Of a DNA stretch of 49,149 nucleotides, positions 3,671 through 16,911 are shown piece by piece. The DNA is taken from positions 1 through 49,149 of the forward strand of contig JANXQL010000013.1 in NCBI GenBank assembly GCA_025356815.1, given 5' to 3'. Numbering within the stretch: the first letter of the stretch is position 1; each line of letters begins with the position of its first letter. The stretch is from Pseudomonadota bacterium. GTDB lineage: Bacteria; Pseudomonadota; Gammaproteobacteria; Steroidobacterales; Steroidobacteraceae. The position numbers were made by a program, and so were the translations under genes. The notes beneath the pieces were generated by a model that ran no database searches, was not told where the DNA came from, and saw nothing but the letters and a program-made list of their open reading frames with translations.

Positions 3671-4501
3671 ATGATTCGAGAGCCAGCCCCGGGTATCGTC
3701 GATGCAGAGGTCGTCGAGGCCTATCAGCGCGACGGCGCCGTCTGTCTGCGCGGCCTGCTCAGTGCGGACGAGGTCGCAACGCTCAGGGCAGGGATCGACG
3801 CCAATCTCGCCGCGCCCAGCCCGCGCGCCAAGGTCGCCAGCCGCAGCGACGACCCGGGGTTCTTTATCGAGGATTTCTGCTGCTGGCAGCAGAACGAGCA
3901 CTACCATCGTTTCATTCACACCGCGCCACTTGGCCCCGTGGCCGCCCGGCTCACCGGCAGCCGGCGAGTGCGCCTCTACCACGACCACATGCTGACCAAG
4001 GAGTCCGGCACGCGGCAGGGAACGCCGTGGCACCAGGACCAGCCCTACTACAACATCGACGGCCGCCAGAACGTCAGCTTCTGGATCCCGGTGGACCCGG
4101 TGAGCCGGGCAGCGACGCTGGAGTTCGTGGCAGGCTCGCATGCCGGGCCGTGGCTGATGCCGCGCTCCTTCATGAGCAACGAGGCAAAGTGGTTTCCGGA
4201 AGGCAGCCTCAAGGACCTGCCGGACATCGAGGCGGATCGGTCTGCGCACCGCATTCTCGGCTGGGACCTGCAGCCGGGCGACGTGGTCGCGTTCCACATG
4301 CTGACGCTGCATGCGTCCGCAGGCGTGGAGCCGGGCCGGCGGCGGCGGGTGTTCTCGCTGCGGCTGACCGGTGACGATGTGACCCACGCGCCCAGGCGGT
4401 GGGCCACCTCACCGGCGTTCCCGGGTTTGGAGGCGGAGTTGCCGGCGGGCGCGCCGCTGGAGCACCCGCTGTTCCCGGTGCTCTGGCCGCCCGCGCCCTA
4501 G
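3671..4501 (+). CDS. Phytanoyl-CoA dioxygenase (PhyH) family Fe(II)/2-oxoglutarate oxygenase
   Basis: A 276-residue protein. The ATG at 3671 is preceded by a GGGAGACGAGG purine run, which makes it a better start than upstream codons overlapping the previous gene. The facial triad is visible as His121-x-Asp123 (PWHQD) and His214 (TLHASAG), followed by Arg231 or a neighbour as 2-oxoglutarate anchor (VFSLRLTGDD). The PhyH family includes hydroxylases of phytanoyl-CoA, ectoine and small metabolites. The surrounding genes handle methylated amines, so a betaine-like substrate is conceivable, but a lipid substrate shared with the preceding hydroxylase-family protein is equally possible. Its TAG stop overlaps the TAG stop of the convergent MttB-family gene within one CTAG tetranucleotide. 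Confidence 0.87.
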   Translation: MIREPAPGIVDAEVVEAYQRDGAVCLRGLLSADEVATLRAGIDANLAAPSPRAKVASRSDDPGFFIEDFCCWQQNEHYHRFIHTAPLGPVAARLTGSRRVRLYHDHMLTKESGTRQGTPWHQDQPYYNIDGRQNVSFWIPVDPVSRAATLEFVAGSHAGPWLMPRSFMSNEAKWFPEGSLKDLPDIEADRSAHRILGWDLQPGDVVAFHMLTLHASAGVEPGRRRRVFSLRLTGDDVTHAPRRWATSPAFPGLEAELPAGAPLEHPLFPVLWPPAP

Positions 4502-6069
4502 ACGTTGGAGTCCGGGAACGAGTTCTTGCGGCGGGTCATGTAGTCGAGCAGCGCCTCGTCGATCGCAGGATCGAGGGCTGGTGCCTCGTACTCGGCCAGC
4601 TGCTTCTTCCAGTAGGCATTCGCGCGGACGGTCATGTCGCTCGCGCCTTCCGCCTCCCACTGCTCGTAGCTGTTGTTGTCCGTCAGCGGCGAGCGGTAGA
4701 ACGCGGTCTCGAAGTTCGCCTGCGTGTGCGCGCAGCCGAGGAAGTGCTTGCCCGGCCCGACCTCTCGGATCGCGTCCATCGCCTGGCCGTTCTCGGTCAT
4801 GTCCACGCCGGACAGGAACGTCTGCATCATGCCGGCCTGGTCGGCGTCCATGACGAACTTCTCGTAGCCCATCGCAAGCCCGCCCTCGAGCCAGCCGGCC
4901 GTGTGCAGCACGAAATTGACACCCGCGAGGCAGGTCGGCAGCAGCGTGTTCGCCGACTCGTAGGCGGCCTGCGCGTCCGAGATCTTCGAGCCGCACAGTC
5001 CGCCACCGGAGCGGAACGGCACGCCGAGGCGGCGGGCGAGGGCGGCCATGACGTACAGCACCAGCGCAGGCTCCGGCGTGCCGAAGGTCGGCGCGCCCGA
5101 CTGCATCGAGATCGACGAGGCGAAGCTGCCGAAAATCACCGGCGCGCCCGGGTTCACCAGCTGGGCGAATGCCATGCCGGCCAGCGACTCGGCGAGCGTC
5201 TGCGCGGCGGTTCCGGCCACGGTCACCGGTGACATGGCGCCGGCGAGGATGAACGGCGTGACGATCGTCGCCTGGTTGGCCCGGGCGTAGACCTTCAGCG
5301 CGCCGAGCATCGTCGCGTCGAAGGTCATGGGCGAGTTCGCGTTGATCAGGCTGACCAGCACCGTCTTGTTGCGACCGGTGGTGGGGTCCACGAAATCGGG
5401 CCCGAACAGGATCTTCGCCATCTCGACGGTGTCTTCGGCGCGCTCGGGCGCCGTGACACTGCCCATGAACGCCTTGTCGCTGTACTTGATGTGGCTGTAG
5501 ACCATGTCGAAGTGGCGCTTGTTGACCGGCAGGTCGACCGGTTCGCAGATGGTGCCGCCGGAGTGGTGCAGGGCGGGCGCCATGTAGGCGAGCTTGACGA
5601 AGTTGCGGAAGTCCTCGATGCGCGCATAGCGGCGACCGTCGTCCAGGCTGCGGATGAACGGCGAGCCGTAGGCCGGTGCGAACACGGTGTTGCGCCCGCC
5701 GATGACTACATTGCGAGCCGGATTGCGCGCGTGCTGAATAAACTCGCGCGGGGCGCTCTTCTGCACCAGTGTGCGGCACATGCCGCGCGGGAAGCGGACG
5801 CGCTCGCCATCGACCTCGGCGCCGGCGGCCTTCCAGATCTCGAGGGCTTCCGGGTCGTCGCGAAAGTCGATGCCCACCTCCGCCAGGATCGTGTCGGCGT
5901 TCGCCTCGATCGTGGCGAGGGCCTCCTCGCCTAGGACCTCGAAGTACGGGATCGAACGGGTGATGTAGGGGATCGTGACCGCCGACCGCGCCGCACGCGC
6001 CGCACGCTTCGCTTCACGACCGCCGCCACGGCTGCGTCGCGACGACGCCTCTGCCTGTTGCTCATCCAT
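4498..6069 (-). CDS. MttB-family (trimethylamine methyltransferase-like) corrinoid methyltransferase, non-pyrrolysine
   Basis: The protein has 523 residues when started at the ATG at 6069, chosen because an AGGAGG motif lies 10 bases upstream; an ATG at 6093 would add eight residues but lacks a ribosome site. A basic Arg/Lys/Gly-rich leader of about 30 residues precedes a complete MttB-type TIM barrel. Family members transfer a methyl group from a quaternary or tertiary amine to a Co(I) corrinoid protein. Archaeal MttB carries pyrrolysine at an in-frame amber codon; here the frame is uninterrupted and the corresponding region reads RSGGGLCGSKISDAQ, so this is a non-pyrrolysine type like the glycine betaine methyltransferase MtgB. 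The transporter and bet genes nearby favour glycine betaine as substrate, but proline betaine, carnitine or choline cannot be excluded. Confidence 0.85.
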   Translation of the reverse strand: MDEQQAEASSRRSRGGGREAKRAARAARSAVTIPYITRSIPYFEVLGEEALATIEANADTILAEVGIDFRDDPEALEIWKAAGAEVDGERVRFPRGMCRTLVQKSAPREFIQHARNPARNVVIGGRNTVFAPAYGSPFIRSLDDGRRYARIEDFRNFVKLAYMAPALHHSGGTICEPVDLPVNKRHFDMVYSHIKYSDKAFMGSVTAPERAEDTVEMAKILFGPDFVDPTTGRNKTVLVSLINANSPMTFDATMLGALKVYARANQATIVTPFILAGAMSPVTVAGTAAQTLAESLAGMAFAQLVNPGAPVIFGSFASSISMQSGAPTFGTPEPALVLYVMAALARRLGVPFRSGGGLCGSKISDAQAAYESANTLLPTCLAGVNFVLHTAGWLEGGLAMGYEKFVMDADQAGMMQTFLSGVDMTENGQAMDAIREVGPGKHFLGCAHTQANFETAFYRSPLTDNNSYEQWEAEGASDMTVRANAYWKKQLAEYEAPALDPAIDEALLDYMTRRKNSFPDSNV

Positions 6070-6128
6070 AGGGGCCCGACCTCCTGAATCCATGCGGCAG
6101 TATGGTCATGCGGCCGGGCCGGGTCTGA

Positions 6129-7355
6129 TCAGTTTGCGGCATTGGCGTGCCTCGGGGCGCCCTGCCCGCCGGCCAGGGCCCGGATCACCTCGCCGGAGCC
6201 ACAGACCCCGGCGAACGCCCCGGCCTGCGTCAGCAGCACCGGGTGCCCGGTCTGGCGCAGCAACTGGATCAGTCGGCGCAGCGGGGTCGCCAGCGGCGTG
6301 ACCGCGACCCCCGCCGGTGGCGGGAGGGGCCCGACGCCTGCGTCGATGGCGAGTCCCAGGATCCGGTCCCGGTGGCGGACCGCCTGTGGGGCGCCGGCGG
6401 CGTCCAGCGCCAGCCGGTAGGCACCGGCCTCGTCCAGCGACAACTCGCCATCGCGCCGGGCGAGCTCGCCTGCGGCGGTCATCACCATCTGGCCCGTGAG
6501 CACCGTCAATGGATTCATGTGCTGCACGAACTCGGTCACATAGGCGGTGGCCGACCGCAGCACGATGTCCTCGGCGCTGCCGGTCTGGACGATCCGGCCA
6601 CCCTCCAGCACCGAAATCTGGTCGCCCAGCTTGAGCGCCTCGTCGAGGTCGTGCGTGACGAACAGAATCGTCTTGCGGACCCGTTCCTGCAGCTGGCCGA
6701 GCTCGTCCTGCAACTTCGCGCGGATGAGCGGGTCGAGCGCGGAAAACGGCTCGTCCATCAGCAGGATGTCGGCGTCCGTGGCGAAGGCGCGCGCGAGCCC
6801 CACGCGCTGCTGCATGCCACCGGACAGCTCGCTGACGTGCCGGTCGGCCCATTGCGACAGGCCCACCAGCTCGAGCTTCTCGTCGATGATCCGGCGGCGC
6901 GTCGCCAGCGGATCGCCGCGCAATTCCAGACCGAAGCCGACGTTGTCGCGCACCGTGCGCCAAGGCAGGAGGCCGAACTGCTGGAACATCATCGCAATGC
7001 AGCCGCGTCGCAGCCGGCGCAGCGTCGCACCGTCGCAGCTGGCGACATCGACGATCGCGGTGCCATCGTCGAGCAGCACGTTGCCGCGCGTCACCCGGTT
7101 CAAGCCGTTGGCGGCCCGCAGCAGCGTCGATTTGCCGGAGCCCGACAGACCCATCAGTACGGAAATGTGCCCGCGGGTAACGGCAAGGCTTGCGCCGGCG
7201 ACCCCGACGACGACGCCGTTGTCCTTCTGTATCTCAGCCCGTGTGCGGCCCGCGTCGAGGGCACCGAGTGCCGACTGGAGCGCGCGCTTGCCGTCGCGCC
7301 CGCTCTCGCGGGCAAACAGGATGTCGACGTCGCGGAACTCGAGGGCGATGCTCAC
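6129..7355 (-). CDS. Choline/glycine betaine ABC transporter ATP-binding protein (ProV/ChoV/OpuAA-like)
   Basis: A 408-residue ATPase beginning at GTG 7355. Walker A is GLSGSGKST (Lys75), the Q-loop lies in MMFQQFGLLPW, the signature LSGGMQQR is at about 177-184, and Walker B is ILLMDEP at 197-203. The long form (about 400 residues with a C-terminal regulatory region after about residue 270) is typical of ProV/ChoV rather than of general ABC ATPases. It would energise uptake of choline or betaine through the permease encoded just upstream. Its GTG start overlaps the TGA stop of the permease (GTGA), so translation is probably coupled. No clear paired CBS motifs could be confirmed in the C-terminal part. 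Confidence 0.9.
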   Translation of the reverse strand: MSIALEFRDVDILFARESGRDGKRALQSALGALDAGRTRAEIQKDNGVVVGVAGASLAVTRGHISVLMGLSGSGKSTLLRAANGLNRVTRGNVLLDDGTAIVDVASCDGATLRRLRRGCIAMMFQQFGLLPWRTVRDNVGFGLELRGDPLATRRRIIDEKLELVGLSQWADRHVSELSGGMQQRVGLARAFATDADILLMDEPFSALDPLIRAKLQDELGQLQERVRKTILFVTHDLDEALKLGDQISVLEGGRIVQTGSAEDIVLRSATAYVTEFVQHMNPLTVLTGQMVMTAAGELARRDGELSLDEAGAYRLALDAAGAPQAVRHRDRILGLAIDAGVGPLPPPAGVAVTPLATPLRRLIQLLRQTGHPVLLTQAGAFAGVCGSGEVIRALAGGQGAPRHANAAN

Positions 7356-8323
7356 CGATTGCCTGCCTTGTCGGAGGGACGAGTGATTCGGTCGAGGATG
7401 ATGGCGAGCAGCACGATGGCAAGTCCCGCCTCGAAACCCATGCCGACCTGCACGGTGTTCAGGGCGCGCACGACCGGGACGCCGAGGCCGCCAGCGCCCA
7501 CCAGCGCCGCGATCACGACCATCGACAGGCTGAGCATGATGCACTGAGTGATGCCGGCGACGATCGTCGTTGCGGCGCTGGGCAGCTCGATGCGCAGCAA
7601 CAGCTGCAGCCGCGTCGCGCCGAACGCCTCGCCTGCCTCGAGCAGCGACGTCGGGACCGACGAGATGCCCAGGTGCGTGAGCCGGATCGGCGCCGGCAGC
7701 GCGAATATCACGGTCGAGAGCAGGCCCGGCACGACCCCCAGGCCAAACAGCACCAGCGTCGGCGTGAGATAGACGAACGTCGGCAGCGTCTGCATCAGGT
7801 CGAGCAGCGGACGCAACATGGCGTACAGGCGCGGGTGATGCGCCGCCGCGATGCCCAGCGGTACACCGATGAGTGTCGAGACGAATGCGGCGACCAGCAC
7901 CAGGGCGAGGGTCTCCAGCGTCGCGGACCAGTAGCCCTGGTTGATGATGAACATCAAGGCCAGCGCCACGAACAGGCACAGCGGCAGCGAGCGCCGCAGC
8001 GCGTACGCGAGCAGCGTGACCAGCACGATTAGCAGTGGCGCCGGGATGGCCATCAGACCACTTTGGACCGCGTCGGTGCTGCCACGCACGACCAGCGACA
8101 GGGCGTCGAAGAACCCCCGGCCGTGATGTTTGACGTACTCGACCAGCGAGGTGACGCTGTCCCCGACCGGGATCTTGTGGCGGGTGACCCAGCGCTCGAA
8201 GGCCGAAGCCTCCGACGCGCGGGTGGTGCTCGGCGACAGCGCGAGCACCAGCGCGCCGAGCGATGCCACCGGCCGGCCGGCGAGAAGCATAGTGCTGCGC
8301 CAACTGCGCCCGTCGGATCTCAT
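7352..8323 (-). CDS. Choline/glycine betaine ABC transporter permease (ProW/ChoW-like)
   Basis: The protein has 323 residues from the ATG at 8323, which has an AGGGAGA ribosome site about 5 bases upstream; an earlier ATG at 8371 lacks one. An N-terminal hydrophobic segment (about residues 12-33) is followed by the IPVGDSVTSLVEYV segment seen before the membrane core of ProW-type permeases, then by several transmembrane helices. The cytoplasmic coupling loop is EAGEAFGATRLQLLLRIELP. With the ATPase it forms an inner-membrane importer. A periplasmic binding protein (ProX/ChoX) is not encoded in the window, so it must be elsewhere or absent. The gene is divergent from betIB across a short intergenic region with a palindromic operator candidate. 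Confidence 0.88.
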   Translation of the reverse strand: MRSDGRSWRSTMLLAGRPVASLGALVLALSPSTTRASEASAFERWVTRHKIPVGDSVTSLVEYVKHHGRGFFDALSLVVRGSTDAVQSGLMAIPAPLLIVLVTLLAYALRRSLPLCLFVALALMFIINQGYWSATLETLALVLVAAFVSTLIGVPLGIAAAHHPRLYAMLRPLLDLMQTLPTFVYLTPTLVLFGLGVVPGLLSTVIFALPAPIRLTHLGISSVPTSLLEAGEAFGATRLQLLLRIELPSAATTIVAGITQCIMLSLSMVVIAALVGAGGLGVPVVRALNTVQVGMGFEAGLAIVLLAIILDRITRPSDKAGNR

Positions 8324-8379
8324 CCGATTCTCCCTTGACCCCGTGGACGCCGGGTCGGCATCATCCCCCACGGCCCGAC

Positions 8380-8393
8380 TGAACGGCCGTTCA
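8380..8393. promoter_or_regulatory. Candidate TetR/BetI operator: perfect 14-bp palindrome
   Basis: TGAACGGCCGTTCA is a perfect inverted repeat lying between the permease start and the AT-rich promoter segment of the divergent bet genes. TetR regulators such as BetI bind short palindromes of this kind. A closely similar site (12 of 14 positions the same) occurs at 16604-16617, upstream of a TonB-dependent receptor. Binding by the BetI domain encoded next door is inferred. Confidence 0.5.
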
Positions 8394-8427
8394 ACCGGCC
8401 GACGGCCGATGGCCGGCGATCCTTAAT

Positions 8428-8457
8428 ATCCTATTGATTATAAATAAGTTTAGTCAA
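8428..8457 (-). promoter_or_regulatory. Candidate sigma70 promoter for the choline/betaine transporter
   Basis: Read on the minus strand, TTGACT (8457-8452) and TAGGAT (8433-8428) are separated by 18 bases in the only strongly AT-rich patch of this region. The palindrome at 8380-8393 would then lie in the early transcribed region, a suitable place for repression. A plus-strand promoter for betIB very likely uses the same AT-rich patch, but no clear -35/-10 pair could be fixed for it. Confidence 0.4.
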
Positions 8458-8538
8458 AACATCGACTTCAGCCAAAGCTGTGAATCCGCTTTGGGGACTG
8501 GCCCGGCGCGTGCCCGGGCATCCATCAGGAGCACTACA

Positions 8539-10629
8539 CTGAACAACCAGTCAAGCAAAGGCAACTCCGCCGCAGGGCCTGCGGCCGCCAAGGGTGCGGG
8601 GACCGAACGGCTCGAGGAGGATCGCCGCGAGCAGCTGATCGAGGTCGCGATCGATTGTCTGGCAGAACTGGGCTACGTGGGTAGCACGCTCGCTCAGATC
8701 GCCGGTCGTGCCGGCGTCTCGGCCGGGCTGATCGGTCACTACTTCGGCGACAAAGACGGTTTGCTCGAGGCTGCGTTCCGTCGCCTGAGCCGCGGCGTGC
8801 ACGCCAACGTGCGCGCGAAACTGCAGCTCGCTCGCACGCCGCGCGGTCGCGTACAGGCGGTCATCGACGCGAACCTCGCGCCGCAGGAGTTCCACCAGCG
8901 CACCGGCAATGCATGGCTCGCGTTCTGGGGCCAGCTGCGGCACGTGCCCGCGCTCTTGCGCGTGCAGAAGGCGTACCAGCGTCGCATGCTGTCGAACCTT
9001 CGCCACGCACTCGCGCAGATGCTGCCCGCCGACGAGGCGCGCACCCTCGCCGCGATGATCGCGGCCATGATCGACGGTGTCTGGCTGCGCGCGGCGCTGT
9101 CGGACTGGGTGGAGGCCGATAGCGAGGCGGCCCGTGGTCTGCTGACCGCGTTCGTTGAAGGGCGCCTGCGCGAGCGCGCGCCGCCTGCGGCGGCGGCGGC
9201 GCGCGTGGTGGCGAGCGGGGTCGAGGGTCACTTCCGCACCATCAATCCCGCCACCGGCGCGACCCTCGCGGAGTTGCGCATCGACGGTCCGGCGGAAGTC
9301 GACGCGGCGGTCGCGGCGGCGACCGAGGGGCAGCGTCGGTGGGCCGCCATGACCGGTACCGAGCGCGGCCGCGTGCTGCGCCGGACCGCCGATATCCTGC
9401 GCGCGCGCAATACGGAGCTGGCCGAACTCGAGACTCGCGACACCGGCAAGCCGATCCAGGAGACCAGCGTCGTCGATGTCATCTCGGGAGCGGACTGCCT
9501 TGAGTACTACGCAGGGATCGCAGCGACCATCGCCGGCGAGCATATCGACCTCGGACCGGGGGCGTTCGGCTACACGCGCCGCGAGCCGCTCGGCGTCGTC
9601 GCCGGCATCGGGGCGTGGAACTACCCCATCCAGATCGCCTGCTGGAAGTCGGCGCCCGCGCTTGCCTGTGGCAACGCGATGATCTTCAAGCCGGCGGAGC
9701 TGACGCCGCTGACCGCGATCGAGCTGAAGAAGGCGTTCGACGCGGCGGGCCTGCCGCCGGGCGTCTTCCAGGTGGTGCAGGGCAAGGCCGACACCGGCCG
9801 CCTGCTGAGCAGGCATCCTGGCATCCGCAAGATCTCGCTGACCGGCGAGGTCGGCACCGGCAAGGCCGTGATGAGCGATGCGTCCGGCACACTCAAGTAC
9901 GTCACGCTCGAACTCGGCGGCAAGTCGCCGCTGATCGTGTTCGACGACGCCAAGCTCGACAATGCCGTCGGGGGTGCGCTGCTCGCCAACTTCTATTCGG
10001 CCGGCGAGGTGTGTTCCAACGCGACGCGCGTGTTCGTGCATCGCAAGGTCAGGGCTGCATTTCTCGACAAGCTCAAGGCGCGGGTGCTTGCGATGCGCGT
10101 CGGCGACCCCATGGACCCGCGGACCCAGGTCGGTGCGCTGATCTCCGAAGCCCACATGGAGAAGGTCCTGGGCTACATCGCGCGCGGGCAGGCCGAAGGC
10201 GCAAGACTTCTGACCGGTGGTCACCGCGTCACCAGCGGTGACCTTTCGAACGGCTTCTTCGTCGCACCGACCGTCTTCGACGGCTGCCACGACGACATGA
10301 CGATCGTCCGCGAGGAGATCTTCGGGCCGGTCATGAGCGTGCTTGAGTTCGATGACGAGGAGGAGGTGATCGAGCGGGCGAACGCGACGGAGTTCGGCCT
10401 GTCCGCGGGGGTGTTCACCAACGACCTGACGCGCGGCCACCGGGTGATCGCGCGCCTCGAGGCGGGCACCTGCTGGATCAATCACTACAATGTCACGCCG
10501 ATAGAACTGCCGTTCGGCGGCCACAAGCGCTCGGGTCTTGGCCGTGAGAACGGCCGCGCTGCGATCGAGCACTACACTCAACTCAAGAGCGTCTACGTCG
10601 CGCTGGGTGACGTCGACGCCCCTTACTGA
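8539..10629 (+). CDS. BetI-BetB fusion: TetR-type choline-responsive repressor joined to betaine aldehyde dehydrogenase
   Basis: One open frame encodes two proteins that are normally separate. Residues about 28-78 are a TetR HTH matching BetI ([26 protein letters not shown]), and about 85-210 the BetI ligand domain ([19 protein letters not shown]). A short Ala/Arg-rich linker (about 211-231) leads into a complete aldehyde dehydrogenase from FRTINPATG onward, with Asn361 (GAWNYP), Glu458 (LELGGKSP) and the nucleophile Cys492 (GEVCSN). BetB oxidises betaine aldehyde to glycine betaine with NAD(P)+. There is no in-frame ATG or GTG ahead of the HTH. CTG 8539 has an AGGAG seven bases upstream and is my choice; TTG 8434 and TTG 8491 are alternatives without ribosome sites. 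The usual first 15 or so residues of BetB are missing at the junction and no other frame encodes them, which argues against a simple frameshift artefact. Confidence 0.85.
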
Positions 10630-10639
10630 AGGCGCTGCC

Positions 10640-12298
10640 GTGGATAACTCGACCTATGACTACGTGATCGTCGGCGCCGGCTCCGCCGGCTGCGTCCTTG
10701 CCAACCGCCTGAGCGAGGATGGGCAGAGCACCGTGTTGCTGCTCGAGTACGGCGGCTCCGACCGCTCGATCTTCATCCAGATGCCGTCGGCGCTTGCGAT
10801 CCCGATGAATCGCAAGGAGTTCAATTGGTTCTACTACTCGGAGCCTGAACCTGACCTTGGCGGCCGGCGCATCCACACGGCGCGCGGCAAGGTGCTCGGC
10901 GGCTCCTCGTCGATCAACGGCCTGGTCTACATCCGCGGCAACGCCTTCGACTACCAGCGCTGGGAGGCGGAGGGTGCGCGCGGCTGGAGCTACGCGGACG
11001 TGCTGCCGTACTTCAATCGCGCCGAGCGGCGCGCCGAGGGCGCCACCGACTACCGCGGCGGCGAGGGTCCGGTCGGGACCTGTTACGGGACGCTCAAGAA
11101 CCCGCTGCACGCGGCATGGCTCGCGGCCGCGAAGGAAGCAGGCTATCCGCACACCGACGACGTCAACGGCTTCCAGCAGGAAGGCTTCGGGCGGATGGAC
11201 ATGACCGTCGAGCGTGGTGTCCGCGCCAGCACCGCGAACGCGTACCTGCGCCCGGCCATGTCGCGGCCGAACCTGAAGGTCGAGAGTCGCGCGCTCGCAA
11301 GCCAGGTGCTGTTTGAGGGTCGTCGCGCGGTCGGGGTTCGCTACGTTCGGGGTGGGGTCGAGCGGGTCGTGCGTGCGCGACGCGAGGTGATCGTGTCCGC
11401 AGGTTCGATCGCCTCGCCGCAGCTGCTGAAGCTTTCAGGCGTAGGCCCCGGCGCCGAGCTGCAGCAGCTCGGGATCCCGGTCGTTCACGACCTGCCGGGC
11501 GTCGGCGAAAACCTGCAGGATCACCTCGAGTTCTACTTCCAGGTCGCGTGCCGCGAGCCGATCACGCTGTTCTCGGCAATGAGCCCTCTCGCCAAGCTCA
11601 GGATCGGCGTCGAGTGGGTGCTGTTCAAGACCGGCCTCGGGGCGACCAATCATTTCGAGACCTGCGGCTTCCTGCGCAGCCGAGCCGGCATCCAGTACCC
11701 GGACATCCAGTACCACTTCCTGCCGCTGGCAGTGAGCTACGACGGCAGCTCGCTGGCGAGCGAGCATGGCTTTCAGGCGCACGTCGGACCGATGCGCTCG
11801 AAGAGCCGCGGGCACGTACGCCTCATGAGCCCCGACCCGCTCGAGAAGCCGAAGATCCTGTTCAACTACATGAGCCACGCGGACGACTGGACAGAGATGC
11901 GCGCGTGCGTTCGGCTGACGCGCGAGATCTTCGCGCAGAGCGCGTTCGACCGGTATCGCGGCCGGGAGATCGCGCCGGGCGGCGCGGTGGACAGCGACGA
12001 GCAGATCGACGAGTTCATCCGCCAGAAGGTCGAGACGGCCTACCACCCCTCGTGCTCGAACAAGATGGGCGCGGCCGACGATCGCATGGCCGTCGTGGAT
12101 CCCGAGACACGGGTTTACGGACTCGAGGGGCTGCGGGTCGTCGACTCGTCGATCATGCCGTCTATCACCAACGGCAACCTGAACGCGCCGACGATCATGC
12201 TCGCCGAGAAAGCGGCCGACCATATCCGGGGCCGACCCCTGCTGCGCTCGGACGCGCCGTTCTACGAATCGCCGAACTGGCGAACCAGCCAGCGCTGA
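10640..12298 (+). CDS. betA: Choline dehydrogenase (GMC oxidoreductase)
   Basis: The protein has 552 residues, close to the 556 of E. coli BetA, from GTG 10640, ten bases after the BetI-BetB stop. The N-terminal FAD-binding motif is VGAGSAGCVLANRL (about residues 11-24), the GMC signatures include RGKVLGGSSSINGLVYIRGN, and the catalytic His is His469 in the AYHPSCSNKMG motif, with the partner Asn in GNLNAP near 513-515. It oxidises choline to betaine aldehyde at the inner membrane, passing electrons to the respiratory chain, and supplies the substrate of the fused BetB domain. It forms an operon with the fusion gene. Its stop is 17 bases from the stop of the convergent NCS1 permease. Other GMC alcohol dehydrogenases are possible by motif alone, but the context makes BetA the best call. 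Confidence 0.9.
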   Translation: MDNSTYDYVIVGAGSAGCVLANRLSEDGQSTVLLLEYGGSDRSIFIQMPSALAIPMNRKEFNWFYYSEPEPDLGGRRIHTARGKVLGGSSSINGLVYIRGNAFDYQRWEAEGARGWSYADVLPYFNRAERRAEGATDYRGGEGPVGTCYGTLKNPLHAAWLAAAKEAGYPHTDDVNGFQQEGFGRMDMTVERGVRASTANAYLRPAMSRPNLKVESRALASQVLFEGRRAVGVRYVRGGVERVVRARREVIVSAGSIASPQLLKLSGVGPGAELQQLGIPVVHDLPGVGENLQDHLEFYFQVACREPITLFSAMSPLAKLRIGVEWVLFKTGLGATNHFETCGFLRSRAGIQYPDIQYHFLPLAVSYDGSSLASEHGFQAHVGPMRSKSRGHVRLMSPDPLEKPKILFNYMSHADDWTEMRACVRLTREIFAQSAFDRYRGREIAPGGAVDSDEQIDEFIRQKVETAYHPSCSNKMGAADDRMAVVDPETRVYGLEGLRVVDSSIMPSITNGNLNAPTIMLAEKAADHIRGRPLLRSDAPFYESPNWRTSQR

Positions 12299-13889: not shown

Positions 13890-16547
13890 TCAGAACTTCC
13901 AGCCCATCGACACGCCGATTACGCGCGGCCGCAATGGCGTCTGCGCAACGATGAACTGGTCGGTGCTGGTGAATGTCGCCGCGTTCGAGTTGGTCAGGTT
14001 CTCGGCGATGATCGACACGTTCCACGCATCCTTGGAGATGCCGAACGAGGCGTCCCAGGTCGAGTACGCCGGGTTCTCGAAGCGCAGGCGTCCGGTCGTG
14101 ATGCCGCCCGCCTCGGCGATCGACGGGTTGGAGCCGGCCTGCGTGAACGAGTGGCCGAGGTGGGAGACGCCGACCTGCAGGAACGACTCACACTCGCCGA
14201 TCGCGAACTGGTAGCGCGCCCGCACGCTGAACTGCAGCGGTGGGGAGTTCGCGGTCGGCGAACCGATCGGGCCGAACGGGTTGACGACGTCCACGCAGTT
14301 TGCGCCGGAGCTGTCGCAGTTCTTGACGATCGGGTTGCCGTAGTTATTGCTCTTCGGCGTGCCGAGCGTGCCATCGTTGTTGTCGATCAGCGCAGGCGAG
14401 TTCGTCTGCTTGCTCTGGTTCCAGGAGCCGGCGGCCTGCAACGTGAGGCCCGGCAGCACGCGGAAGACGACAGAGGTCTCCAGGCCCTTCAGTTCGAAGT
14501 TCTGGCCGTTGGTGTTGTAGAACACGTTGCCGACCAGGCCCGGGTTGAAGAACGCGACCTGGACGTTGTTCCACGCTTCCTTGTAGACGGCGCCGTTCCA
14601 CTGCAGGCGGTGGTTGAGGAACTCCGCCTTCCAGCCGATTTCGTTGTTGGAGAGCTTGTCCGACGTGTAAGCCCTGGGCACGGCGTACTGCTGGATGCCG
14701 TCCGTTCCATAGGCGTGCAGGGCATTGCCGTTCTGGTTGAAGCCGCCCGGGCGGAAGCCCTGCGAGAAGGTGTAGTACACCATCACGTCCGGCGTGATGT
14801 GCCAGGTCAGGTTCACGCGGCTCTTCCAGCCGGACTCGGTGTCCTGCAGGTTCTGGGCGTCGAGATTGTAGCCAAGGCCATGGCAGCCACCCGGTATGAC
14901 GCCCTGCTGGAAGCAGGCAAAGCTGTTCGGAACGTCGCCTTTCAGCGAGTTCTTGAAGCTGAAGTGGCGCGAGCCGATCGTCGCCGTCAGTACCTTCGGG
15001 ATGAGGTCGTAGTCGAAGGAGAAGAAGAAGGCGGTCTGCTTCGTCTCGCGAACGTCGTCCTGGTAGAACGAGCTGTTCGCGTCGCGCACGCCGGGGTTGA
15101 CCACCGTGGTGCCTGCAGTCGTGCCGATCGGCGTGAAGCAGTCGGTGTTGCCGGGCGTGCCCGGGTCACCGTTCGAGGTACACGCCGGGACCGTCTTGTA
15201 GCGCCAGTCGCTCTGGTCGTAGAGCTTGTTGTTCTGCACGTACACGCCCGCGATGCCACGCAGGCGCCAGTCGTCCGGGGTCGAGATGCGGAACTCGTGC
15301 TGCCAGTGCTCGTTGCGCTCGACCGAGCGCCAGATCACCGCGGGGGAGAAGCAGGTCGAGGGGTTTACCGCCGAGGCGCCGTAACACTGGTAGTAGTCTG
15401 CGTATACGCCGCGCGAGTAGTTCGTGTAGTCGTTGACCTGCTCGACCTTGCGCACGAGGTAGCCGCCGGTATAGACGGCGCGCAGCGCGCCGATCTTGCC
15501 GTTGAGCGTCCAGGCGGTGCTTTCGAACTTGTCCTTGTCGTAGGACGGGTTGAACAGCGTGACCTCGAGCGGCTTGAGCGTCTCGCCGTCCGAGCCGTTG
15601 GGCTGCTGGTAGAACACGCCGTCGGCCTGCATGTTCTGGTACATCTGCGTCAGCAGCAGGTCCCAGTCTTCGTTGAACTGGTACTTCGCCTCGACGCGGA
15701 TGCCCTGATACGTGACCGGGTTGATCGCGCGCGCGGCGATGGCGTTGTTGCTGGCCGTCACCGAGCCCGGCGGCACGCACCAGCCGTTGTTCGGCAGGCC
15801 GTCGGGGCAGACGCCTTCCACGGCCGGATAGTTCGCGTAGTGGATGCCGGCATCCGTGTTGCGACGGGTGAACGTCGCCGGCACGTTGTCGATGTAGCCG
15901 CCACGATGGTCGGTGAAGAACACGCCGCGCACCGCCAGCTTGTCGGCGATCAACGGCAGGTTCAGCACCGCGGTCAGGTCCGAGTTCGGGTCGCCGTGCG
16001 CGGTCACGCCGTAGCCGGCCTTGATGCTGCCCTCGGTGACGTTGAGCTTCGGCTCATTGGTGATGTAGCGGATCATGCCCGCCTCGGCGCCCGAGCCGAA
16101 CAGCGTGCCCTGCGGACCTTCCAGGATCTCGATCCGGTTGAGGTCCGCGGCATAGATGTCGAGGTTGCGGCCGGGCAGCTGGCCCGACTGGTTGTCCAGG
16201 TAGATCGCGACGTTCGGGAACGCCGCCGTGGTGCCGCTGCCCTGGCTCGGCTGTGCGCCGGCACTCAGGCCGCGCATGAAGATCTCGTTCTGGCCCGGGC
16301 CGTTGTTGGCCGAGGTCACGTTCGGCAGGTACTTGATGTAGTCGTCGAAGGTGGCGACGTTCAGCTCGCCCAGGGACTTGGCGGTGAAGGCCTGCATCGA
16401 GATCGGCACGTCCTGCATGCTTTCCGAGCGGCGCTGTGCCGTCACGATGATCTCGCCGAGCGTATCCGAGGCGGGTTCGGCGGCGACGGCACCGATGGAG
16501 ACGCCCCCCAGAATGGCTGCGATCGCGTACGAGAGCTTTGACTTCAT
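13890..16547 (-). CDS. TonB-dependent outer-membrane receptor
   Basis: The protein has 885 residues from ATG 16547, which follows a GGGAAG ribosome site. A signal peptide of about 22 residues ends near GAVAA; the TonB-box region and plug start at EIIVTAQRRSES. The plug motif RIEILEGPQGTLFGSGAEAG is clear, and the protein ends in a barrel closing strand with a terminal Phe (GVSMGWKF). These receptors import scarce or large substrates across the outer membrane using TonB energy. This type (iron-complex receptor family, common in sphingomonads and some gammaproteobacteria) does not reveal the ligand. A near-palindrome similar to the bet operator lies 56 bases upstream of the start, hinting at co-regulation with choline/betaine genes. 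It is transcribed away from the gcv operon. Confidence 0.9.
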   Translation of the reverse strand: MKSKLSYAIAAILGGVSIGAVAAEPASDTLGEIIVTAQRRSESMQDVPISMQAFTAKSLGELNVATFDDYIKYLPNVTSANNGPGQNEIFMRGLSAGAQPSQGSGTTAAFPNVAIYLDNQSGQLPGRNLDIYAADLNRIEILEGPQGTLFGSGAEAGMIRYITNEPKLNVTEGSIKAGYGVTAHGDPNSDLTAVLNLPLIADKLAVRGVFFTDHRGGYIDNVPATFTRRNTDAGIHYANYPAVEGVCPDGLPNNGWCVPPGSVTASNNAIAARAINPVTYQGIRVEAKYQFNEDWDLLLTQMYQNMQADGVFYQQPNGSDGETLKPLEVTLFNPSYDKDKFESTAWTLNGKIGALRAVYTGGYLVRKVEQVNDYTNYSRGVYADYYQCYGASAVNPSTCFSPAVIWRSVERNEHWQHEFRISTPDDWRLRGIAGVYVQNNKLYDQSDWRYKTVPACTSNGDPGTPGNTDCFTPIGTTAGTTVVNPGVRDANSSFYQDDVRETKQTAFFFSFDYDLIPKVLTATIGSRHFSFKNSLKGDVPNSFACFQQGVIPGGCHGLGYNLDAQNLQDTESGWKSRVNLTWHITPDVMVYYTFSQGFRPGGFNQNGNALHAYGTDGIQQYAVPRAYTSDKLSNNEIGWKAEFLNHRLQWNGAVYKEAWNNVQVAFFNPGLVGNVFYNTNGQNFELKGLETSVVFRVLPGLTLQAAGSWNQSKQTNSPALIDNNDGTLGTPKSNNYGNPIVKNCDSSGANCVDVVNPFGPIGSPTANSPPLQFSVRARYQFAIGECESFLQVGVSHLGHSFTQAGSNPSIAEAGGITTGRLRFENPAYSTWDASFGISKDAWNVSIIAENLTNSNAATFTSTDQFIVAQTPLRPRVIGVSMGWKF

Positions 16548-16602
16548 TGGGCGCTTCCCTATGTGGACGTTGAGCGTTTGCCGGGGGATGCCTCTCAGGC
16601 GG

Positions 16603-16618
16603 TTGAACGCCCGGTCAA
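16603..16618. promoter_or_regulatory. Candidate TetR-type operator upstream of the TonB-dependent receptor
   Basis: TTGAACGCCCGGTCAA is an imperfect inverted repeat whose core matches the perfect palindrome at 8380-8393 at 12 of 14 positions. It lies upstream of the receptor start codon, in the leader or promoter area. Recognition by the same TetR-type domain is an inference. The rest of 16619-16911 is relatively AT-rich, should hold the receptor promoter, and contains no gene I can support. Confidence 0.4.
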
Positions 16619-16911
16619 TGGCATCACGCGCGGCATGGGAATTCAGTGTGTCGCAACAAAGTCTTCGATGCAAGATTGACGCGCTGCTCGTATGTATTGC
16701 AGGAAAAACAGGCACAATTTTAGAAGCTGCAACGCAGCAAAATGCGAGCGTTGGTATTCCGCAACGAATTTGAACGCGCATTCAGCGCGGTTACTCGAGG
16801 AGGCTCCGCACGCCTGGGCCGAATTCGCCGGTGCGACCGCCCTGGCCAGGCGCTCGAAGCGCACGCTGTGCCGCTAGGTACTTTTCTCCGACGCGCGCCG
16901 ACCGACGCCGC

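Follow-up and report, generated by a model that had tools for sequence, protein, structure and literature searches.

Can a BetI repressor and a BetB betaine aldehyde dehydrogenase that share one reading frame truly be a single protein, and how would such a protein act? The window, that is, the whole 49,149-nt stretch of DNA analysed here, carries a stop-free frame running from nt 8386 to a stop ending at 10629 (748 codons from stop to stop). The gene betIB was placed within it at 8539..10629 on the + strand (696 aa, CTG start, TGA stop), based on the open frame, the Pfam domains and the conserved fusion. Pfam gave three domains for the protein and no others. These are, in order, a TetR_N helix-turn-helix (HTH) at 8635..8775 (PF00440, E 1.7e-10, P0001 residues 68-114; 40.9 bits against a cut-off of 24), the C-terminal TetR_C_6 of BetI type, a ligand/dimerisation domain, at 8839..9168 (PF13977, E 2.6e-22, P0001 residues 136-245; 79.6 bits against 27) and the Aldedh (BetB) domain at 9226..10593 (PF00171, E 7.3e-173), all on the + strand. 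The uninterrupted frame from the CTG at 8539 to the stop at 10629, with its domains in this order, bears out the preliminary description, which had read BetI and BetB as one polypeptide.

The enzyme half scored above the cut-offs of two NCBI betaine aldehyde dehydrogenase models (671.7 against 668.6 for TIGR01804; 778.6 against 593 for NF009725). Asn361, Lys384, Glu458 and Cys492 of the Aldedh domain, numbered from 8539, showed no variation across 37 aligned rows of fused proteins, and the catalytic residues Asn361, Glu458 and Cys492 listed at the outset are thus present. Judged by its residues, the BetB half appears catalytically complete, and oxidation of betaine aldehyde is its probable reaction given its family and the betA/choWV context. 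Only aldehyde dehydrogenases were found among the best 50 of 1634 Foldseek matches. The closest solved relatives of the enzyme half among the matches listed were betaine aldehyde dehydrogenases (BADHs), and the solved BADH 6wsa was 60% identical to the BetB half in the structure match. When the PDB was searched with the sequence of the BetI half, none of the best 60 of 78 matches was named BetI; the top match was 3e7q, a 'transcriptional regulator' (E 1.3e-19) with an AWLAFWG stretch in common. HTH and ligand-domain residues of the BetI half are common to separate BetIs. The second-best matches in the window genome were 42% identical for the aldehyde dehydrogenase and 32% for the TetR.

The protein can be set against two known families. 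It resembles BetI in its TetR_N and TetR_C_6 domains, common residues, palindromic operator of TTGA..TCAA type and operon neighbours; known BetIs, for example that of the Pantoea locus examined, are separate genes, whereas the BetI of the window forms the N-terminal half of BetB with no intervening stop. It resembles BetB (TIGR01804) in passing the equivalog cut-off, in its catalytic residues and in its identity to 6wsa, and differs in carrying an N-terminal repressor of ~215 residues. In many alphaproteobacterial members a ...GGRFV...-type stretch also precedes the Aldedh core; it is absent in the window's family.

The start at 8539 is a CTG, and conservation in the window's genus backs this earlier assignment. 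All nine genus members printed by our start-codon script have CTG at the homologous start codon, one of them (G013) with an ATG immediately 5' of it, and seven of the nine have GGGAG or AGGAG 7 nt 5' of the CTG; in the window this putative Shine-Dalgarno (SD) sequence is the AGGAG at 8527..8531 (+ strand). A tenth member, L103, is cut by a contig end, was unmatched by the script and stands outside the nine. A TTG at 8434 was considered as an alternative start and rejected: the residues upstream are unconserved, and five of the nine relatives have no in-frame ATG, GTG or TTG from the upstream stop to the HTH. In two other genera (G019 and G020) TTG occupies the homologous start site, and the single stops reported in these two genomes precede the TetR domain. 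The window's genus thus appears to use a CTG start that is not covered by the usual ATG/GTG/TTG rule.

We then asked how widespread the fusion is. In a whole-protein search of 60 relatives, eight further species of the genus and two further genera gave matches that covered both halves. The BetI half, used as a query against 200 genomes of the family, matched 78 at E ≤ 1e-20, of which 63 scored at least 150 bits; an uninterrupted frame of at least 600 aa held 51 of these 63 matches (hand count, with frame length as the criterion). Seven of the remaining 12 run off a contig end, with part of BetB visible in frame in four of them; the others comprise an interrupted aldehyde dehydrogenase frame (G210), an N gap (G183, at the same place as L168), two loci with separate genes (G006 and G014) and, lastly, G204. 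Of 54 loci put through a six-frame check, with those cut by contig ends counted, 42 have the two domains in a single ORF. Among the named loci (the best 80 of 196 related ones), 71 were fused, and the nine unfused ones consisted of four cut by a contig end, two with interrupted aldehyde dehydrogenase frames, one with an N gap and two with separate genes.

Most members with the fusion are metagenome-assembled genomes. The fused isolates among the named loci are Acidocella aquatica NBRC 112502, Ancylobacter crimeensis 6x-1, Stakelama flava CBK3Z-3 and Bosea sp. 117, and Komagataeibacter saccharivorans CV1 carries the fusion on a complete plasmid, where it is annotated as betB only (WP_254058047.1) with the annotated start inside the HTH region. 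Three plasmids were examined out of 262 matching records; one was fused (H1) and two had separate genes (H3 and H5). An even sample of the phylum gave a BetI match at E ≤ 1e-30 in 109 of 398 genomes and the fusion in five, the window included, with each frame of at least 600 aa checked. G277 (674 aa) and G238 (663 aa) have long frames at BetI, yet no fusion. In the class of G313 (385 genomes), 24 matched at E ≤ 1e-45; three of them are fused (G369, G313 and G1072), and a fourth, G991, has the decayed form described below. In the window's order (196 genomes), all 14 matches at E ≤ 1e-45 fell within the window's own family, and 13 of them have frames of more than 700 aa. These comparisons indicate that the fusion is conserved in many relatives and is not a one-off of the window genome.

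Phylogenetic trees point to a single origin. In a BetB-domain tree of 100 rows, all 74 fused rows fell in one clade of 82 rows (SH-aLRT 98). The eight unfused rows in this clade, six without BetI and two split, have all kept BetB; with them inside the clade seven state changes are needed, of which at least five are forced by starred branches. In the BetI tree, which has some long branches of unsure placement, the 74 fused and the two split rows made up one clade of 76 (support 97). The trees leave out 21 of the 121 loci, namely contig-end truncations, interrupted frames, loci with no adjacent BetB and one duplicate. Read most simply, the trees would show a single fusion, a later split shared across the G006/G014 group and at most six losses of the BetI half. 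Since similarity to fused BetIs was how the loci were collected, unfused close relatives may be under-sampled and the history could shift with wider sampling. With eight of 82 clade rows unfused, the fusion is evidently dispensable.

Six relatives (L072-L077) have BetB without BetI and without the upstream operator. The BetI half was unmatched at E ≤ 1e-20 in four of the six BetI-less genomes, and the other two (G022 and G023) gave weak BetI matches only, of ~78 bits, on other contigs. The alphaproteobacterial locus L267 (G991:C7:60000-70000) has BetI followed in frame by a decayed aldehyde dehydrogenase remnant that covers only positions 26-195 of the 461 of the Aldedh profile. This locus keeps operators, betA and choWV, and the best aldehyde dehydrogenase elsewhere in the G991 genome is only 46% identical to the BetB half of the window.

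A candidate binding site for the repressor half lies in front of its gene. The predicted operator CTGAACGGCCGTTCAA lies at 8379..8394 (no strand assigned) between the divergent choW and betIB, and agrees with TTGAAC-N4-GTTCAA at 11 of 12 positions; the palindrome noticed earlier at 8380-8393 is real and fits this conserved motif. The motif, picked after the first loci had been inspected, was present at 10/12 or better in the 320 nt preceding the TetR domain at 77 of the 80 fused loci, against ~0.9 of 80 in shuffled sequences and 0 of 80 in coding controls; the other three reach only 9/12. This count dropped L212, a duplicate of L146, and loci with less than 200 nt upstream. The motif also occurred at 10/12 or better at 24 of 32 other BetI loci, a set that is not cleanly unfused, as some of its rows are fused-clade members with cut contigs or interrupted frames, and it is therefore a general BetI box rather than a mark of the fusion. 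A box of similar kind, ATTGACG*CGTCAAT, is given for BetI1 of Ruegeria pomeroyi in passages of PMC12442346, which also describe the BetI of E. coli, S. meliloti and Acinetobacter as a repressor that responds to choline.

The operator follows the BetI half. None of the six BetI-less loci had an operator in the 400 nt preceding the BetB domain, where the best sites reached 7-8/12, the coding background, and both split loci, which belong to one clade, kept it at 11/12. No other finding speaks as strongly for regulation of its own gene by the fused BetI half as this joint absence of operator and BetI half. A genome-wide scan for the operator with one mismatch stayed near the control level (sites per strand for the pattern versus the reversed pattern: G000, 5 vs 4; G005, 7 vs 2; G008, 3 vs 2; G010, 3 vs 2; G123, 6 vs 4; G103, 3 vs 3), and we therefore claim no regulon beyond the bet locus. 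In the window, a second operator-like site (11/12) at 16603..16618 and a weaker one (10/12) at 16770-16785, neither assigned to a strand, lie upstream of the gene for a TonB-dependent receptor (frame 13890-16781, - strand), which may belong to the same regulon.

The neighbouring genes concern choline. Downstream in the same orientation is betA, encoding choline dehydrogenase (10640..12298, + strand; TIGR01810, 825.5 against a cut-off of 732.1). Divergent from betIB are choW for a choline ABC transporter permease (7352..8323, - strand; TIGR03416, 384.3 against 363) and a choV-like gene for the ATPase (6129..7343, - strand; TIGR03415, 476.4, slightly under the cut-off of 483.75). Among 83 fused loci, many of them shortened by contig or fetch limits, BetA was found in 75, choW in 48 and choV in 49. 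The window locus also holds genes for an MttB-family methyltransferase, an NCS1 permease and the TonB-dependent receptor. The MttB-family (trimethylamine methyltransferase-like) gene at 4498-6093, whose product may act on glycine betaine, recurs in nine of the 83 fused loci, a count in which the short locus L001 of the window ended before it.

Taken together, these data make it likely that BetIB works as an autogenous repressor and an enzyme in a single chain and governs both betIB-betA and the divergent choline transporter. The BetI half would dimerise and bind TTGAAC-N4-GTTCAA between the divergent choWV and betIB-betA operons, repressing both. Occupation of the BetI pocket by choline, or by betaine aldehyde, would release it from the operator, and the BetB half would oxidise betaine aldehyde to glycine betaine with NAD(P)+. 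Since regulator and enzyme would be one chain on a loose tether, the repressor dose would equal the enzyme dose; induction would therefore also make the brake that closes the operon once choline is spent. At the level of sequence, the fused frame, its conservation, the single-clade history, selection, the catalytic residues, the operator tied to the BetI half and the operon context all argue for this model. We infer that the fused chain binds DNA, that choline is the inducer, as is known for separate BetIs, that the two doses are coupled and that the chain is not processed into two proteins.

Repressor-enzyme fusions are a known kind, PutA among them. In PutA, a repressor with a ribbon-helix-helix (RHH) domain is joined to proline dehydrogenase, a catabolic enzyme encoded in the repressor's own operon, and trifunctional forms also include an aldehyde dehydrogenase domain. 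Filing the window protein as a PutA was rejected, as it has no proline dehydrogenase and no RHH, and TetR_N, TetR_C_6 and Aldedh are its only Pfam domains; it has instead a TetR-type HTH in a complete one-component repressor with its own ligand domain. Regulator and enzyme fold also share one chain in MocR/GabR (GntR plus aminotransferase), BirA and NadR, where the DNA-binding and enzyme families differ from those of BetIB; in MocR, the aminotransferase fold is the sensor.

The PutA precedent suggests another way for BetIB to work, in which the enzyme is the sensor and the catalytic or NAD state of BetB, its substrate or its tetramerisation sets the operator affinity of the BetI half. Both domains do lie in a single chain, and PMC9132996 describes a regulatory activity of PutA that is raised by L-proline and inhibited by FAD and NAD+. 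The G991 locus, with operators kept beside a decayed enzyme, would fit a sensory role or plain decay. The properties of the linker, however, speak against such a switch. It lies at 9181..9231 (+ strand) and is Ala-rich; the preliminary description was right that a linker is present and gave its length as roughly 20 residues, where we count 17. Across 83 fused rows, which include the L146/L212 duplicate and contig-truncated genes, linker length ranges from 8 to 50 residues (median 24). Linker omega was 0.37-1.08 in the seven of nine pairs with unsaturated dS (10-31 codons). An AlphaFold model (37 rows; mean pLDDT 84.3, pTM 0.66) falls below pLDDT 50 over residues 215-228, which predicts a disordered linker, and also at residues 1-19 and, near the enzyme C-terminus, at 652-664 and 670-681. 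The BetI half, moreover, has its own ligand domain with residues common to separate BetIs, two split loci retain the operator and both genes, and BetI has been lost (in up to six lineages) or split in eight of 82 rows. Given the variation, nearly free evolution and predicted disorder of the linker and the loss or splitting of BetI, a flexible tether fits better than tight allosteric coupling, and the earlier proposal that oligomerisation, substrate or NAD state alters operator binding as in PutA is unsupported so far. We consider it unlikely that BetB engagement with NAD+ and betaine aldehyde, or tetramerisation, tunes operator binding so that flux, and not only choline, sets expression. If it did, BetIB would have arrived independently, by way of a TetR repressor, at a solution like that of PutA, and the G991 form would be a lineage that kept the sensor and dropped catalysis.

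It is also improbable that the fused gene yields two working proteins, with an internal start or linker cleavage freeing BetB, and perhaps BetI, and the fusion coupling expression only. The window linker has in-frame GTG codons at 9205 and 9208 that could start a separate BetB, and the linker, with its predicted disorder, could be cleaved by proteolysis. Neither GTG has an SD-like sequence, however, and GTG is expected by chance at ~68% GC. Some ATG, GTG or TTG occurs in 55 of the 83 linkers (ATG in 11), whereas 28 have no such codon and only four have one together with an SD-like sequence.

Over nine pairs, dN/dS was 0.03-0.14 for the BetI half and 0.03-0.10 for the BetB half, figures that are rough as some dS values exceed 1. 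Strong purifying selection thus appears to act on both halves, with the linker nearly free. We therefore reject as very improbable a neutral fusion in which the BetI half is carried along with no part in regulation: the half is absent in six of 82 rows of the fused clade, but where present its omega is near that of the enzyme, its HTH and ligand-domain residues are those common to separate BetIs, and the operator is present with it and absent without it. Least of all, with a chance close to nil, could an assembly or sequencing artefact account for the fusion by removing a stop that separates two genes. The window is one contig in a draft of 207, but dozens of independent genomes, with isolates and a complete plasmid among them, carry the same fusion, likewise in frame. 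This refutes the artefact and excludes a sequencing indel of the kind that the preliminary description had named as a refutation, indicating that the BetI-BetB fusion is real.

No description of a BetI-BetB (TetR/BetI-ALDH) fusion was found in the open-licence PMC papers searched, in line with the initial impression that the architecture is undescribed; public databases already contain sequences of the fusion, which makes it undescribed within the scope of these searches but not unseen. In the passages taken from PMC12442346, 'fused' is absent and 'fusion' appears only as a PCR method; the gene fusions named in those from PMC7824335 are methyltransferases, and those from PMC12454647 deal with ALDH-ADH fusions, with no TetR.

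Alongside PutA, BetIB would be a further natural example in which a transcriptional repressor is joined to a catabolic aldehyde dehydrogenase from its own operon. Annotation tends to hide such proteins, as the Komagataeibacter copy, named betB with its start within the repressor, and the apparent CTG start outside the ATG/GTG/TTG rule illustrate. The genomes also hold natural controls in the fused, split, repressor-less and enzyme-decayed forms, and the gain from fusing a regulator to its enzyme is therefore directly testable, in cultured Acidocella, Ancylobacter or Komagataeibacter.
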